NCBI RefSeq assembly: GCF_003345355.1
Contig: NZ_QQNB01000002.1
Location: forward strand, 124,001 to 188,000
DNA: 64,000 bases
Direction: 5' to 3'
From: Sphingomonas aracearum
Lineage (GTDB): Bacteria > Pseudomonadota > Alphaproteobacteria > Sphingomonadales > Sphingomonadaceae
This document shows, piece after piece, positions 2,201 to 53,630 of the stretch. Within the stretch, counting starts at the first letter, position 1. The number at the start of each line of letters is the position of its first letter. The translations under genes were made by a program, and so were the position numbers. The notes beneath the pieces are model-generated. The model was not told the origin of the DNA. It saw only the letters and a program-made list of their open reading frames with translations, and did not search any database.

Positions 2201-3295
2201 TCAGTCCAGTGGCTGGCGCCAGCCGTGCGGATCGGGCGCGCGGCCGAACTGGATGTCGGTCAACCGCTGCTTGATGCGGCCGGTCAGCGGCCCCGCACCA
2301 CCGGAACCGATGGTGAAGCTGCCTTCCGGGCTGTTGACGGTGCCGATCGGCGTCACGACGGCAGCAGTGCCGCAGGCAAAGCTCTCGGCAAGGCGCCCGC
2401 TTTGCGCATCGTCGCGCCACTGGTCGAAGGCATAGGGCTCCTCGCGCACGGCAACGCCCTCGTCGCGCAGCAGCCGGAGGATCGAGTCGCGGGTGATGCC
2501 GGCCAGGATCGTGCCGCTCGTCGGCGGGGTCGACACCGAGCCGTCCGCGAACACGAAGAAGACGTTCATGCCGCCCAGTTCCTCGATCCAGCGACGCTCC
2601 ACCGCATCCAGGAACACCACCTGGTCGCAGCCGTGGCGGATCGCCTCGGACTGGGCGAGCAGGCTCGCCGCATAGTTGCCGCCGCATTTGGCCGCGCCGG
2701 TGCCGCCCGGCGCCGCGCGCGTATATTCCTGGCTCACCCACAGCGACACTGCCGGCGCGCCGCCCTTGAAGTAATTGCCAACGGACGAGGCGATGACCAT
2801 GTATAGATACTCGCTGGACGGCTTCACCCCCAGGAACACCTCGCTCGCGAACATGAACGGGCGTAGATAAAGCGCGCCGCCTTCGCTTTCCGGGATCCAG
2901 TCGCGATCGGCGCGAACCAGCGCGCGGCAGGATTCGACGAACAACTCCTCCGGCAGCTCGGGCATCGCGAGCCGCTGCGCCGAACGGTTGAAGCGGCGCG
3001 CGTTCTGCTCCGCGCGGAACAGCGCGGCACTGCCATCCGGCTGACGATACGCCTTCAGGCCTTCGAAGATCTCCTGCGCATAGTGCAGCACCGACGAGGC
3101 CGGATCCACCGTCAGCGTCGTGCGCGCAGTGATCCTGGCATCGTGCCACCCGCGCTCGTCGCTCCAGCGCGCCACCGCCATGTGATCGGTGAACACCCGG
3201 CCAAAACCCGGATCCACGAGCCGGGCCTGCCGCTCGCTGGCGGGCAAAGGCGTGGCGGTCGGCTCAAGCGCGAAGAGCTGCGGATCGGCGTTCAT
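2201..3295 (-). CDS. ilvE: branched-chain amino acid aminotransferase
   Basis: PLP-dependent transaminase interconverting Leu, Ile and Val with their 2-oxo acids, using glutamate/2-oxoglutarate. At 364 residues it has the length of the BCAT group of fold-type IV enzymes. The PLP-binding lysine is K203 in GTGAAKCGGNYAASL; EIFEGLKAYR (75-84) and EELGGMNVFFV are also conserved BCAT segments, as is the C-terminal GTAAVVTPIG. The ATG at 3295 gives MNADPQLFAL. It is divergent from a MarR-type regulator 62 nt away, an arrangement that suggests, but does not prove, regulation of ilvE by that protein. Confidence 0.93.
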   Translation of the reverse strand: MNADPQLFALEPTATPLPASERQARLVDPGFGRVFTDHMAVARWSDERGWHDARITARTTLTVDPASSVLHYAQEIFEGLKAYRQPDGSAALFRAEQNARRFNRSAQRLAMPELPEELFVESCRALVRADRDWIPESEGGALYLRPFMFASEVFLGVKPSSEYLYMVIASSVGNYFKGGAPAVSLWVSQEYTRAAPGGTGAAKCGGNYAASLLAQSEAIRHGCDQVVFLDAVERRWIEELGGMNVFFVFADGSVSTPPTSGTILAGITRDSILRLLRDEGVAVREEPYAFDQWRDDAQSGRLAESFACGTAAVVTPIGTVNSPEGSFTIGSGGAGPLTGRIKQRLTDIQFGRAPDPHGWRQPLD

Positions 3296-3357
3296 CGTTT
3301 CTCTCGTGGGAAGACGGACGTGGAAGCCGTCTGGTGGGTTGCAGCCGCCTAAGCCCG

Positions 3358-3864
3358 ATGGCAGAGGCGGTCAACATGGCCGCCACCGGAACGCCCGCCT
3401 CCCCGCTCTTCCTTCGCGAGTCCGAACTTCGACGCGGACTGGAACTGCTGTACTTCGGCAATTCCCACCTGACGCGAAGCATCGATCAGGGTCTCGCCGC
3501 GCAGGGCATGGGCCGGGCGCATCACCGTGCGCTCTACTTCATCTCGCGCCAGCCCGACCTGACGGTGAGCCAGTTGCTCGGCCATCTGTCGATCACCAAG
3601 CAGTCGCTGGGACGGGTGCTGACCGAACTCGTGGACCGCGGCCTGGTGGAAGTGCGCCAGGGCGAGCGCGACCGGCGCCAGCGGCTGCTGCGCCTCACGG
3701 ATGTGGGCCGGGATCTGGAGAACAACCTGTTCGATGCCCTGCGCGAACGGCTCTCCGCCGCTTATGCCAGTGCGGGCCAGCAGGCGGTGAGCGGGTTCTG
3801 GGCCGTGCTGGAGGGCCTTATCCCCGAGGGCGAGCGCCCCCGCATCGAGCAACTGCGCGACTGA
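3358..3864 (+). CDS. MarR-family transcriptional regulator
   Basis: About 168-residue winged-helix DNA-binding protein. The wHTH core runs from roughly residue 40 to 125: helices around HHRALYFISRQPDLTVSQLLGHL, the recognition helix near SITKQSLGRVLTELVDRGLVE, then the wing RQGERDRRQRLLRLT. MarR proteins act as dimers and usually respond to small ligands. Three starts are possible: GTG 3334, ATG 3358 and ATG 3376; the last has GAGG at 3364-3367 eight bases upstream and may be the true one. It is divergent from ilvE, the obvious candidate target. No ligand can be inferred. Confidence 0.85.
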   Translation: MAEAVNMAATGTPASPLFLRESELRRGLELLYFGNSHLTRSIDQGLAAQGMGRAHHRALYFISRQPDLTVSQLLGHLSITKQSLGRVLTELVDRGLVEVRQGERDRRQRLLRLTDVGRDLENNLFDALRERLSAAYASAGQQAVSGFWAVLEGLIPEGERPRIEQLRD

Positions 3865-49066: not shown

Positions 49067-50098
<1,032 letters not shown>

Positions 50099-50198: not shown

Positions 50199-50215
50199 TT
50201 GGCACGCGCCGTGCA
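50199..50215 (+). promoter_or_regulatory. sigma-54 promoter of the psp operon
   Basis: TTGGCAC (50199-50205), five bases, GTGCA (50211-50215): the -24 GG and -12 GC are separated by exactly ten bases, as sigma-54 requires. It is 55 nt upstream of the first small gene and points away from pspF. Confidence 0.88.
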
Positions 50216-50269: not shown

Positions 50270-50407
50270 ATGACCAACATGAAAACCAGCATCGGCCAGA
50301 CGGTTCTGACCGCGATCGCCGCCCTGCTGGTGGGTGGCATGTTCGTCGGCGGCGCCGTGGCGCCCGCGATGAACGCCGCCGGGGTTGCCGTCACCCAGGT
50401 CGCGTGA
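50270..50407 (+). CDS. 45-residue membrane peptide, first gene of the psp operon
   Basis: Short protein with one hydrophobic helix (TVLTAIAALLVGGMFVGGAV). AGGAAGGA lies just upstream of ATG 50270, a strong ribosome site, and the gene is directly behind the sigma-54 promoter, so it is probably real and abundantly made under stress. No homologue known to me; it may help anchor PspA or be a leader peptide. Confidence 0.65.
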   Translation: MTNMKTSIGQTVLTAIAALLVGGMFVGGAVAPAMNAAGVAVTQVA

Positions 50408-50484
50408 CGGCATGGCCGGGGCGGGCCTTATACCCCTCGCCCGCCCCGGTTCATCCTTCCGTTCAAGTATCCAAGGAGCACCCG

Positions 50485-51153
50485 ATGGGCATTTTCTCCC
50501 GCACCCGAGACATCATCGCCGCCAACTTCACCGACCTGCTCGACAAGGCGGAGGACCCGTCCAAGATGATCCGCATGATCATCCTGGAGATGGAGGAAAC
50601 GCTGGTGGAGGTCCGCGCCTCCGCCGCCCGCACCATCGCCGACCAGAAGGAAATGCGCCGGCACATCGCCAAGCTGGAAAAGCTGCAGGAAAGCTGGACG
50701 GAGAAGGCCGAGCTGGCGCTCTCCAAGGACCGCGAGGACCTGGCCAAGGCGGCGCTTGTCGAGCGGCAGAAGGCGTTCGACATGGCCGAGCAGCTGGGCA
50801 TCGAGGTGTCCGTGCTGGACGACGCGCTGCGCGCCTCGGAAGAGGATATCGCCAAGCTGCAGAACAAGCTGCGCGACGCCCGTGCCCGGCAGAACGTGAT
50901 CCAGACGCGCCTCGAAAGTGCGCAGAACCGCTTCAAGCTGCGCGAGGCCTATGCCGGATCGAAGGTGCAGGAAGCGTTCAGCCGCTTCGACGTGATGGAG
51001 CGCCGCGCCGACATGGCCGAAGGCCGCGCCGACGCGCTGGGCCTGGGGGCACCGGCCAAGACGCTGGAGGAGGAGATCGCCGAGCTCCAGTCGAGCGACA
51101 AGGTGGACGCCGAACTCGCCGCCCTGAAGGCGCGCCTGAACAAGGAGGGCTGA
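50485..51153 (+). CDS. pspA: phage shock protein A
   Basis: 222-residue PspA/IM30/Vipp1 family (ESCRT-III-like). N-terminal amphipathic MGIFSRTRDIIAANFTDLLDKAEDP and long coiled coil to the end (KTLEEEIAELQSSDKVDAEL at the C-terminus). In enterobacteria it supports the damaged inner membrane and inhibits PspF. AAGGAG (50473-50478) before the ATG. Followed by pspB one base after its stop. Confidence 0.95.
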   Translation: MGIFSRTRDIIAANFTDLLDKAEDPSKMIRMIILEMEETLVEVRASAARTIADQKEMRRHIAKLEKLQESWTEKAELALSKDREDLAKAALVERQKAFDMAEQLGIEVSVLDDALRASEEDIAKLQNKLRDARARQNVIQTRLESAQNRFKLREAYAGSKVQEAFSRFDVMERRADMAEGRADALGLGAPAKTLEEEIAELQSSDKVDAELAALKARLNKEG

Positions 51154-51154
51154 G

Positions 51155-51439
51155 ATGGACGAGGTCATCGTTCCGATCTTCGTCTGCGGCATCCTGTTCC
51201 TGGGCCTGCCGTGGATGATCCTCCACTATGTGACGAAGTGGAAGGGCACGCCGAAGATCACCGCCGAGGACGAGAACCTGCTGGACGAGATGTTCAATCT
51301 CGCCCGCCGGCTGGAGGATCGCATGAACACCGTCGAGCGGATCGTCGCCGCCGACAATCCCGACTGGAAGCCGAGCATCACGCAATCGCAGCAGGGCTCG
51401 CTGCCCCAGTCCAACTATGAAATCAGCCGGAGGAACTGA
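51155..51439 (+). CDS. pspB: phage shock protein B
   Basis: 94 residues: N-terminal TM helix (IVPIFVCGILFLGLPWMIL), then a coiled coil RRLEDRMNTVERIVAADN, the LERI-type motif of PspB, and a longer than usual polar tail. In other bacteria PspB and PspC sense membrane damage and draw PspA off PspF. Start one base after the pspA stop. Confidence 0.93.
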   Translation: MDEVIVPIFVCGILFLGLPWMILHYVTKWKGTPKITAEDENLLDEMFNLARRLEDRMNTVERIVAADNPDWKPSITQSQQGSLPQSNYEISRRN

Positions 51440-51440
51440 G

Positions 51441-51818
51441 ATGTCGAGCCGCACCAAATTCTACCTCGATCCGCAGGATGGGAAGTGGAAGGGCGTCTGC
51501 GCCGGGATCGCCGATTATACCGGGGTGGATGCGCTCTGGGTCCGCCTGGGGGTCGCCGGGCTCACCGTGATCGCCCAGCAATGGTGGATCGTGGTCGCCT
51601 ACATGATCGTCGCCTGGGTCGCCGAGAAGAAGCCCTACGGCCTCTACGAAGGCGCCGAGGACCAGAAGTTCTGGCAGGGCGTGCGCTCCAATCCGAAGCG
51701 CTCCACCGCCGAGGTCCGCTCCAAGTTCCGCGACATCGATCGCCGGCTGGCGGACATCGAGACCTTTTACACCAGCCGCAACACGCGCCTGGCGGACGAA
51801 ATCGAGAGCCTGCGCTAG
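51441..51818 (+). CDS. pspC: phage shock protein C with coiled-coil tail
   Basis: 125 residues. The PspC domain (residues 1-60) includes FYLDPQDGKWKGVCAGIADYTGVDALWVRL (shortened: GKWKGVCAGIADYTGVD) and a TM segment VIAQQWWIVVAYMIVAWVA. The tail, FRDIDRRLADIETFYTSRN then ADEIESLR at the very C-terminus, resembles the small downstream proteins. GGAGG (51429-51433) seven bases before ATG 51441. Confidence 0.92.
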   Translation: MSSRTKFYLDPQDGKWKGVCAGIADYTGVDALWVRLGVAGLTVIAQQWWIVVAYMIVAWVAEKKPYGLYEGAEDQKFWQGVRSNPKRSTAEVRSKFRDIDRRLADIETFYTSRNTRLADEIESLR

Positions 51819-51850
51819 TCGCCAGGGCTTCAACAGGGGAAAACGGGAAA

Positions 51851-52204
51851 ATGGAACCGGGTCAGGTCTTTGTTCTGCTGATCATCGCGATGACCATGTT
51901 CGCCGGCATCGTCCGTACCGCGATCAAGGCGCGTCACGGCTATCCGATCGAGGAAGGGCGCCGCGCACGCCGGGCGATGCGCCGCCCCTTCGGACCGATC
52001 GGCCGGGGCATGGCCGCCCGCTACGATGACGGCGAGGACGAGCTGCAATCGCAGCGCAAGATCGAACTGCTGTCGAGCGAGAACGAGCGGCTGACCGGCC
52101 AGATCGGCCGGCTGGAGGAGCGGCTGCGGGTGCTGGAGCGGATCGCCACCGATCCCGCCGAGCGCACCGCGCGCGAGATCGAGGCGCTGCGCGACACGCA
52201 CTGA
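51851..52204 (+). CDS. PspB-like small membrane protein, 117 aa
   Basis: N-terminal TM segment VFVLLIIAMTMFAGIVRTAI, then a basic/polar stretch, then a coiled coil with GRLEERLRVLERIATDPAE and the end REIEALRDTH. The same LERI-x-TD and EIExLRD blocks recur in two later genes of this operon. 32 nt after pspC. Likely inner membrane, coiled coil in the cytosol. No established name. Confidence 0.82.
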   Translation: MEPGQVFVLLIIAMTMFAGIVRTAIKARHGYPIEEGRRARRAMRRPFGPIGRGMAARYDDGEDELQSQRKIELLSSENERLTGQIGRLEERLRVLERIATDPAERTAREIEALRDTH

Positions 52205-52211
52205 GCGGACC

Positions 52212-52234
52212 GGCCGGGCGGCAATCGCCCGGCC
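52212..52234. other. intercistronic hairpin in the psp operon
   Basis: Perfect 9-bp stem GGCCGGGCG/CGCCCGGCC with loop gcaat, eight bases after the 117-aa gene. It may lower expression of the genes behind it or protect the upstream mRNA; no T-run follows. Confidence 0.6.
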
Positions 52235-52256
52235 CCAGAACCAAGGACACACAGCG

Positions 52257-52379
52257 ATGGCACTTGTGATTTTCGCGGCCGTGCTGGCCGTGCCGACGGC
52301 GGCTGCCGTCTACTTCATCGAACGGGTCGACCGGGTCCGCCGCCGCGAGGCGCGCGCCCAGGCCCAGCCCGCCGAATAG
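52257..52379 (+). CDS. 40-residue membrane peptide in the psp operon
   Basis: Sequence begins MALVIFAAVLAVPTAAAVYF, a TM helix, then an Arg-rich tail ERVDRVRRREARAQAQPAE. AAGGA (52242-52246) lies ten bases upstream of the ATG, and the stop is 11 nt before the next gene. A single short TM helix with a basic tail fits the pattern of the operon, but it lacks the coiled-coil block. Confidence 0.65.
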   Translation: MALVIFAAVLAVPTAAAVYFIERVDRVRRREARAQAQPAE

Positions 52380-52390
52380 GAGCAAGAGCG

Positions 52391-52672
52391 ATGAACGGAT
52401 TCACCGTCTTCATGCTGGTGTTCGTGGTGATCGGCCTCCCCGTGATCCTGGGCATCGGCAGCAGCATCTTTTCCGACTGGCTGAAGCACAAGGAGAAGAT
52501 GGCGGCGGCGTTGAACGCGCAAACCGCCGAAAAGGCCGCGCAATATGCCGCCCATACCGAGCGGCTGGAGCAGCGGGTGCGCGTACTGGAACGGATCGTG
52601 ACGGACAAGGGGATCGACCTAGCCGACGAGATCGAGCGGCTGCGCGACGATCGCCCCGCCCCGCTGAACTGA
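52391..52672 (+). CDS. PspB-like small membrane protein, 93 aa
   Basis: TM helix FMLVFVVIGLPVILGIGSSI, then coiled coil ERLEQRVRVLERIVTDKG and DEIERLRDDR near the end. Very close in form to PspB (single N-terminal TM, LERI motif) and to the 117- and 85-aa proteins. GGAGCAAGAG precedes the ATG. Confidence 0.82.
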   Translation: MNGFTVFMLVFVVIGLPVILGIGSSIFSDWLKHKEKMAAALNAQTAEKAAQYAAHTERLEQRVRVLERIVTDKGIDLADEIERLRDDRPAPLN

Positions 52673-52684
52673 GGAGAGAGAGGC

Positions 52685-52942
52685 ATGAACCCGTTCGAGA
52701 TGGTGGTCCTGATCGTGCTGATCGTCACCGTGGGCGCGGTGCTGAAAACGCGGGCGAACGCCGCCCGCCACCGCGAGGCGGCAATCGAGCCGACCGACGT
52801 GGAACAGGAGAACCGCGAGCTGCGCCGCGAACTGCGCGCCATGCAGGAGCGCCTGGCCGTGCTGGAACGGCTCGCCACCGACAACAACGACAGCAGCGCC
52901 CGTCTCGACCGCGAGATCGAGCGGCTGCGCGACAAGCATTGA
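52685..52942 (+). CDS. PspB-like small membrane protein, 85 aa
   Basis: TM helix MVVLIVLIVTVGAVLKT, then a Glu/Arg-rich coiled coil ending RAMQERLAVLERLATDNN and REIERLRDKH. GAGGAGAGAGAGG precedes the ATG, an extended ribosome site. Third member of the LERI-x-TD set. Confidence 0.8.
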   Translation: MNPFEMVVLIVLIVTVGAVLKTRANAARHREAAIEPTDVEQENRELRRELRAMQERLAVLERLATDNNDSSARLDREIERLRDKH

Positions 52943-52955
52943 GGAGGCATTTCCC

Positions 52956-53198
52956 ATGTCCGACCCGAACCTGTACCTCACCGCCGCGGCGAGCGGCTTG
53001 CTGGGCCTGGCGATCGTCACGGTGGCGGCGCTTGCCGGATGGCGCGGCTGGCTGTCGCTGAAGCAGCAGGAACTGCAGCATCACTTCGTTCACGCGCAGG
53101 GCCCCGGCGTGCCGACCGCGTCGGCCCGGATCGAGATCGCCGACCTGAAGGAACGCATCCGCAAGCTGGAGGCGATCGCCGCCGGGGTGGACCTGTGA
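52956..53198 (+). CDS. small membrane protein with coiled-coil end, 80 aa
   Basis: TM helix AASGLLGLAIVTVAALAGWRG, then a polar linker and IADLKERIRKLEAIAAGVDL, a shorter, diverged version of the tail. GAGGAGG lies before the ATG (52940-52946). Last small gene of the run; sufE follows 24 nt later. Confidence 0.78.
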   Translation: MSDPNLYLTAAASGLLGLAIVTVAALAGWRGWLSLKQQELQHHFVHAQGPGVPTASARIEIADLKERIRKLEAIAAGVDL

Positions 53199-53222: not shown

Positions 53223-53630
53223 ATGGCCGAACTTGCTGACATCCGCGACGAATACGAATTCCTCGACGCCGATGACCGTTACCGCCTGTTGATCGATCTG
53301 GGCCGCGCGCTGGAGCCGATGCCCGAGCCGCTGAAGACCGAGACGACGCTGGTGCGCGGCTGCTCCGCCTCCGTCTGGGTCTATCCCACCGCGCGGGGGG
53401 ACGGCACCCTGCACTTCCTGGCGGATTCCAACGCCGCCATCACGAAGGGGATCATCGCCCTGGTGCTGCTGACCGTGCAGGACCGGCCGGCGGCCGAGAT
53501 CGCCACGGCGGATATCGAGGGGGCGCTGGCGCCGTTCGACCTGCGCAACCAGCTGAGTTCCAACCGCACGCAGGGTGTCCCGAACATGATCGCGCTGATC
53601 CGCGAAACGGCCGGGCGGCTGGCCGGCTGA
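53223..53630 (+). CDS. sufE: SufE-family sulfur acceptor protein
   Basis: 135 residues. Accepts persulfide sulfur from the cysteine desulfurase SufS for Fe-S cluster assembly. Active Cys in VRGCSASVWVYP; RNQLSSNRTQGVPNMIALI is the characteristic C-terminal motif. It directly follows the psp run (24 nt), so may be co-expressed, or has its own promoter. No sufS or sufBCD here. Confidence 0.92.
   Translation: MAELADIRDEYEFLDADDRYRLLIDLGRALEPMPEPLKTETTLVRGCSASVWVYPTARGDGTLHFLADSNAAITKGIIALVLLTVQDRPAAEIATADIEGALAPFDLRNQLSSNRTQGVPNMIALIRETAGRLAG

Follow-up and report, generated by a model that had tools for sequence, protein, structure and literature searches.

The phage-shock (psp) operon of Sphingomonas aracearum, located in a 64,000-nt window of contig NZ_QQNB01000002.1 to which all coordinates below refer, continues well beyond pspC. 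Behind pspABC lie five genes for small membrane proteins, designated S117, S40, S93, S85 and S80 after their lengths of 117, 40, 93, 85 and 80 residues. Judged by profile comparison, S117, S93 and S85 are related to PspB but score below its curated cut-offs and are not PspB proper, while S80 is probably a more distant fourth relative. The arrangement is near-universal in the Sphingomonadaceae, where the order runs pspF, a small transmembrane (TM) peptide, pspABC, two to seven PspB-like genes, S80 and sufE. The features of the S. aracearum locus are as follows.

49067-50098, minus strand: pspF, a divergent sigma-54 enhancer-binding activator of 343 residues (NCBIfam TIGR02974, 471.3 bits, cut-off 443.6)
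50200-50215, plus strand: sigma-54 (-24/-12) promoter-like site TGGCACGCGCCGTGCA, by pattern match
50270-50407, plus strand: first gene, a single-TM peptide of 45 residues, with homologues in 20 congeners
50408-50484, plus strand: GC-rich stem-loop in the gap between the 45-residue gene and pspA (z-score -3.45)
50485-51153, plus strand: pspA, 222 residues (TIGR02977, 272.8 bits, cut-off 243)
51155-51439, plus strand: pspB, 94 residues (PF06667, 83 bits; TIGR02976, 79.1 bits, cut-off 51.7)
51441-51818, plus strand: pspC, 125 residues, tail ending in EIESLR (TIGR02978, 118.8 bits, cut-off 104)
51851-52204, plus strand: S117, PspB-like paralogue with a TM helix, a coiled-coil tail and EIEALRD (PspB profile match 95.8%)
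52205-52256, plus strand: stem-loop in the gap between S117 and S40 (z-score -2.84)
52257-52379, plus strand: S40, an N-out TM peptide without a coiled coil, its cytoplasmic tail basic, with homologues in relatives
52391-52672, plus strand: S93, PspB-like paralogue (PspB profile match 94%)
52685-52942, plus strand: S85, PspB-like paralogue (profile match 98-99% to S93 and S117, 67% to PspB)
52956-53198, plus strand: S80, a TM protein with the near-invariant C-terminus RIEIADLKERIRKLEAIAAGVDL (tail profile 76-79% to S85 and S93)
53223-53630, plus strand: sufE, the 3' neighbor after a gap of 24 bp (Pfam PF02657)

The contiguous PspA, PspB and PspC, all above curated cut-offs, together with the divergent PspF and the sigma-54 site, identify this as a pspFABC operon. 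The original prediction, made from the DNA alone, had noted a tail motif common to the 117-, 93- and 85-residue proteins. That motif is present in all three, as LEERLRVLERIATD..REIEALRD in S117, LEQRVRVLERIVTD..DEIERLRD in S93 and MQERLAVLERLATD..REIERLRD in S85, with the single exception that the S85 motif starts with M-Q-E-R and not L-E-x-R. We compared genus-level alignments profile to profile, using as a control reversed profiles, which keep both composition and heptad-like character. The S93, S85 and S117 families match one another at 98-99% along some 75 columns, the TM helix among them, and PspB matches S117 at 96%, S93 at 94% and S85 at 67%, while the reversed-profile controls reach at most 25%. 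In a second control, a mixed paralogue profile left 274 of the 289 genomes searched in the class without a match, and so does not simply detect a TM helix plus a coiled coil. The S80 family matches S93 at 79%, S85 at 76% and S117 at 55%, and PspB at 0.6%. These comparisons relate the tails to one another and speak against the possibility, raised together with the original prediction, that they are unrelated coiled coils. The prediction had further suggested that a single coiled-coil module was duplicated. Profile comparison and the gene tree described below uphold the duplication, but not its restriction to the module: because similarity extends from the tail into the TM helix, it was whole PspB-like genes that were copied.

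The same proteins score poorly against curated models. S93 reaches 14.7 bits with PF06667 and 21.5 bits with TIGR02976, and S85 reaches 10.2 and 17.1 bits, all below the respective cut-offs of 25.6 and 51.7; for S117 no match to either model is listed. The S93 matches to TIGR02976 (E=2e-4) and to the PspC model TIGR02978 (E=7e-4) both fall under cut-off. Over 32 members, the NCBIfam families matched most frequently are PspC (12) and PspB (10), others being matched at most three times, and all of these matches are weak. Within the paralogues the tail is more constrained than the TM or juxtamembrane region. The subfamilies differ in the juxtamembrane region, which is distinct in S117 (e.g. HGYPL..WG).

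Our survey of the order covered 298 genomes, 214 from Sphingomonadaceae and 84 others, the family counts being derived from the listed misses. The S80 profile finds 204 of the 214 Sphingomonadaceae genomes, as against three weak matches in the other 84. The S93 profile finds 211 of the 214, usually with several matches per genome; outside the family it matches 57 of 84, usually once, and these single matches may be either PspB itself or orphan relatives. All 24 matching congener genomes carry the set wherever the sequence is contiguous, and some 40 other Sphingomonadaceae genera keep the operon order. Named loci from a genome scan are in Sphingomonas, Sphingobium, Stakelama, Rhizorhabdus and Hephaestia, among others. 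The small genes are thus conserved in relatives, a point on which the original prediction had staked itself. Genes of relatives were taken from a codon-model caller; a stop-to-stop screen of open reading frames (ORFs) gave many false alternate-frame matches in this GC-rich DNA. Operon statistics were computed over 125 Sphingomonadaceae operons contiguous from pspA to sufE, in which S80 is present in 99%, S85 in 94%, S93 in 92% and S117 in 82%. A further subfamily, S117b, occurs in 62% and is absent from the S. aracearum window, and S40 homologues occur in 31%. With S80 excluded, the number of PspB-like paralogues per operon ranges from 2 to 7 and is most often 3. Plasmid records gave no match. 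In another family of the order, one locus (L037, G037, 2936-3509) has pspABC and, behind it, a tail-less PspC-like gene of 84 residues and one PspB-like gene of 90 residues, and perhaps represents an early stage of the expansion.

A gene tree of 168 sequences, paralogues and PspBs together, built on 82 columns, groups S117b completely (support 0.99) and most of S117 (0.81). The S93, S85 and PspB groups are coherent but poorly supported, as so short an alignment would lead one to expect. Members of each of the four subfamilies come from many genera, and the duplications are for this reason most simply read as old and family-wide, predating the family, with local copies made later; recent local copies are seen in loci L055, L204 and L220. 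Ratios of nonsynonymous to synonymous substitution (dN/dS) were computed for moderately diverged pairs chosen by nucleotide identity, and the values are comparative only. They fall between 0.18 and 0.27 for S117 (0.18), S117b, S93, S85 and S80, as against 0.19-0.25 for pspA, pspB and pspC, and are near 0.45 for the 45-residue and S40 genes (S40 about 0.46). On these ratios, purifying selection maintains the paralogues throughout the Sphingomonadaceae. In some genera (loci L181, L184, L192, L204), an additional C-terminal segment, e.g. DSGVPLNIARKEKA, is common to several paralogues of the same operon. This suggests that they were copied recently, underwent gene conversion or have a short linear motif in common.

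Topology was predicted from counts of the lysines and arginines that flank the most hydrophobic stretch. By this measure PspB, S117, S117b, S93, S85, S80 and S40 are predicted to be N-out/C-in in 97-100% of members. S117, S93, S85 and S80 are predicted inner-membrane proteins whose helical tails lie in the cytoplasm. AlphaFold single-chain predictions give S93 as one continuous helix over residues 3-86, at a predicted local distance difference test score (pLDDT) of 79, and the PspC tail as a helix over residues 89-124, the mean pLDDT of the whole PspC model being 66. A sequence search found no solved structure for PspB or PspC, and a structure search with the paralogue profile returned weak coiled coils only. 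The 45-residue peptide is predicted to be N-in/C-out, with none of 87 sequences showing a C-side positive excess. Its opposite predicted topology and its lack of a tail mean that it is not another tail-bearing anchor of the PspB-like kind; one possibility is a signal peptide followed by a short periplasmic stretch.

The original prediction placed the set behind a sigma-54 promoter, and a promoter-like site does lie at 50200-50215; the divergent pspF scores above its curated cut-off. The site is the only sigma-54 match across the 64 kb window, where 0.11 would be expected, and a matching site lies 5' of pspA in 146 of 152 loci. The predicted ORFs are likewise all present. An independent codon-usage caller, trained only on pspA, pspB, pspC and sufE of relatives and the S. 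aracearum locus, recovered pspA through pspC, all five of the small genes that follow, and sufE at the same coordinates. The 45-residue gene of S. aracearum appears in its output only as the end of an over-extended spurious ORF; in 20 congeners the slot is called as a gene of 35-51 residues. Within the family, a small ORF precedes pspA in 88% of the 125 operons, and 70% are recognized by a hidden Markov model of the 45-residue peptide. In four loci from other families of the order (L034, L039, L060, L065), the place of the TM peptide, ahead of pspA and behind the sigma-54 site, is taken by another small and basic ORF of 48-58 residues, with the example pattern MNxLxxL..ESxxxLGxFG..AYSxFSRRR. 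Both stem-loops are strong and GC-rich and have no T run. The one between the 45-residue gene and pspA tends to recur (median z -2.2 over 57 loci), and possibly sets the relative expression of the first peptide.

At the distal end, sufE follows the operon in nearly all genomes of the family. It also adjoins pspC in families of the order that have no expansion (L031, L042, L060, L064), and the adjacency is therefore older than the expansion. The E. coli psp operon ends in pspE, which encodes a rhodanese, so that both operons end with the gene of a sulfur-handling protein. No pspD, pspE or pspG was found in the S. aracearum operon, and the PspD and PspG families are absent among the library matches of every gene in it.

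Since the duplicated part is a tail of the PspC/PspB type carried on an N-out anchor, we propose, with a probability of roughly 0.55, that the paralogues assemble with PspB and PspC and offer extra docking sites for the PspC tail and/or PspA, tuning both the switch and the recruitment of PspA to the membrane. Activated PspF would lead sigma-54 RNA polymerase to transcribe the whole operon, and the anchors would use both TM helices and leucine-zipper tails to join each other and PspB/PspC. Several N-out/C-in anchors would then each present a leucine-zipper helix of the PspB/PspC type to PspC and/or PspA, their tails serving as alternative docking sites. A multi-subunit sensor would in this way take the place of the PspB-PspC pair, and the array of anchors would set the threshold for PspF release as well as the number of membrane sites that hold PspA. 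Partnership with PspA or PspC is a reasonable inference from what is known of this type of tail in E. coli and Yersinia. PspB of E. coli both self-associates and binds to PspC via membrane regions, and binding of PspA there requires the PspC leucine zipper (PMC3068692); in Yersinia, the C-terminal cytoplasmic domain of PspC is bound to PspA in the on-state (PMC5596341).

The tail of PspC itself bears on this proposal. Its EIxxLR end is found in 134 of 135 Sphingomonadaceae sequences, as against one of eight in other families of the order, and sharing of this end by PspC and the paralogues suggests a common, co-adapted binding partner. Against the proposal, gene conversion or convergence could also yield the shared end, the PspC tail matches the tails of the paralogues only weakly in sequence (45-79% profile to profile), and the match of S80 to PspB is weak as well (0.6%). 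For S80, gene content offers a separate clue. Two genera have a second psp locus that consists of a peptide like the 45-residue one, pspA2, pspC2 and S80, without pspB (L190, L199, L268, L270), and L267 has pspA2-pspC2-S80 with neither pspB nor a called first peptide. In these genomes pspABC and the other paralogues are located elsewhere. Because such loci exist without pspB, S80 can apparently stand in for PspB.

Relatives of the paralogues also occur outside any psp operon in other Proteobacteria, as orphans of 64-135 residues. They come from other classes of the phylum (L247-L258, L265, L266), from the same order (L259, L260) and from the same class (L225, L261-L263), and their best NCBIfam matches are mostly PspB and PspC, all under cut-off. 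No sigma-54 site 5' of an orphan was convincing against shuffles. In L225, two orphans stand in tandem beside genes resembling dut and coaBC. We give tentative consideration, well short of favoring it, to the idea that the tail-bearing small proteins form a distinct and widespread family of membrane-anchored adaptors, akin to PspB yet separate from it and autonomous as orphans in many Proteobacteria, which in sphingomonads was recruited into the psp operon as a graded multi-input sensor replacing the PspB-PspC switch.

The orphans bear also on a reading in which the paralogues stay outside the PspF switch altogether, as stress-induced effectors, comparable to PspG or PspD, that stabilize the membrane or other complexes and are merely co-expressed with pspABC. 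A family with members away from psp operons, lacking an obvious sigma-54 site, can evidently work without pspA nearby, and the distinct juxtamembrane regions, such as HGYPL..WG in S117, point to separate targets. Yet the strongest constraint falls on the PspB/PspC-type tail and not on the TM or juxtamembrane region, and gene number and order track pspABC in nearly every Sphingomonadaceae genome; a purely effector role is the chief alternative, but we hold it doubtful. It is improbable that the paralogues are redundant tandem copies that took on no new function and persist through dosage or drift. Variation in copy number from 2 to 7 and the recent local copies in some genomes (L055, L204, L220) are what such redundancy would produce, but subfamilies that persist across many genera with dN/dS near 0.2, and the presence of S93, S85 and S80 each in more than 90% of operons, are not.

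Less credible still is a generic likeness of TM helix plus coiled coil, by which the proteins would belong to another class altogether. Identities as FtsL/DivIC division proteins, as LysB of the phage Rz/LysB spanins and as TatA were considered, since library scans gave isolated matches (LysB, DivIC, FtsL and TatA, with E = 1e-3 to 1e-4), and were rejected on the frequency of matches over members and on topology. It is PspC (12) and PspB (10) that lead the NCBIfam matches of the 32 members, and the reversed-profile controls fail. The coiled coils of FtsL and DivIC face the periplasm, opposite to the cytoplasmic tails predicted here, and no phage or division genes are adjacent. Assembly with PspB and PspC remains our preferred reading.

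The original prediction was aware of no functional description of this set, and the open literature likewise yielded no functional study of it. The set had not gone wholly without notice, however, since 'PspB duplicates' in a psp operon are mentioned in one line, for AOL22920.1, by Ravi et al. 2024 (PMC11237479). That paper also describes the C-terminal tail of PspC as a divergent PspB fused to PspC (PMC11237479). Beyond that line, its main text is silent on subfamilies and copy range, on topology and distribution, and on companion small genes. New here are the subfamilies, their copy range, near-universality in the family, constraint and topology, together with the companion genes of 80 and 45 residues, the pspB-less loci and the orphan relatives. 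The source of AOL22920.1 is presumably Erythrobacter litoralis, a sphingomonad. The orphans, which score below all curated models and would therefore be left unnamed by them, open a way into a group of small membrane proteins. The operons themselves form a natural series with varied sets of anchors, including S80 without pspB, that offers ready genetics for telling the part of PspB/PspC that senses stress from the part that holds PspA.

Compared with PspB, the paralogues have the same single N-terminal TM helix, the same N-out/C-in topology and the same leucine-zipper tail, L-x3-[VIM]-x2-[LV]-E-x-[IV], but S117, S93 and S85 lack the conserved HYxTxWK segment of PspB and have a second tail segment, EIxxLR, that PspB does not. 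In this they resemble the PspC tail, which is likewise bipartite, its IExxYTS...EIxSLR aligning to LERIxTD...EIExLR of the paralogues, although they have no PspC domain. PspD and PspG of enterobacteria are comparable as small membrane proteins co-regulated with pspA. Most work on the Psp response comes from enterobacteria, in which PspA is signaled to by a single PspB and a single PspC. With two to seven extra PspB-like anchors kept under strong constraint, that textbook circuit is probably incomplete for the Sphingomonadaceae, whose version of this familiar stress switch may have a different wiring. The S. aracearum type of operon shares with the canonical pspF/pspABC system of E. coli and Yersinia the divergent PspF, the sigma-54 site and the order pspA-pspB-pspC, and differs from it by a leading TM peptide, two to seven PspB-like genes, S80 and sufE.

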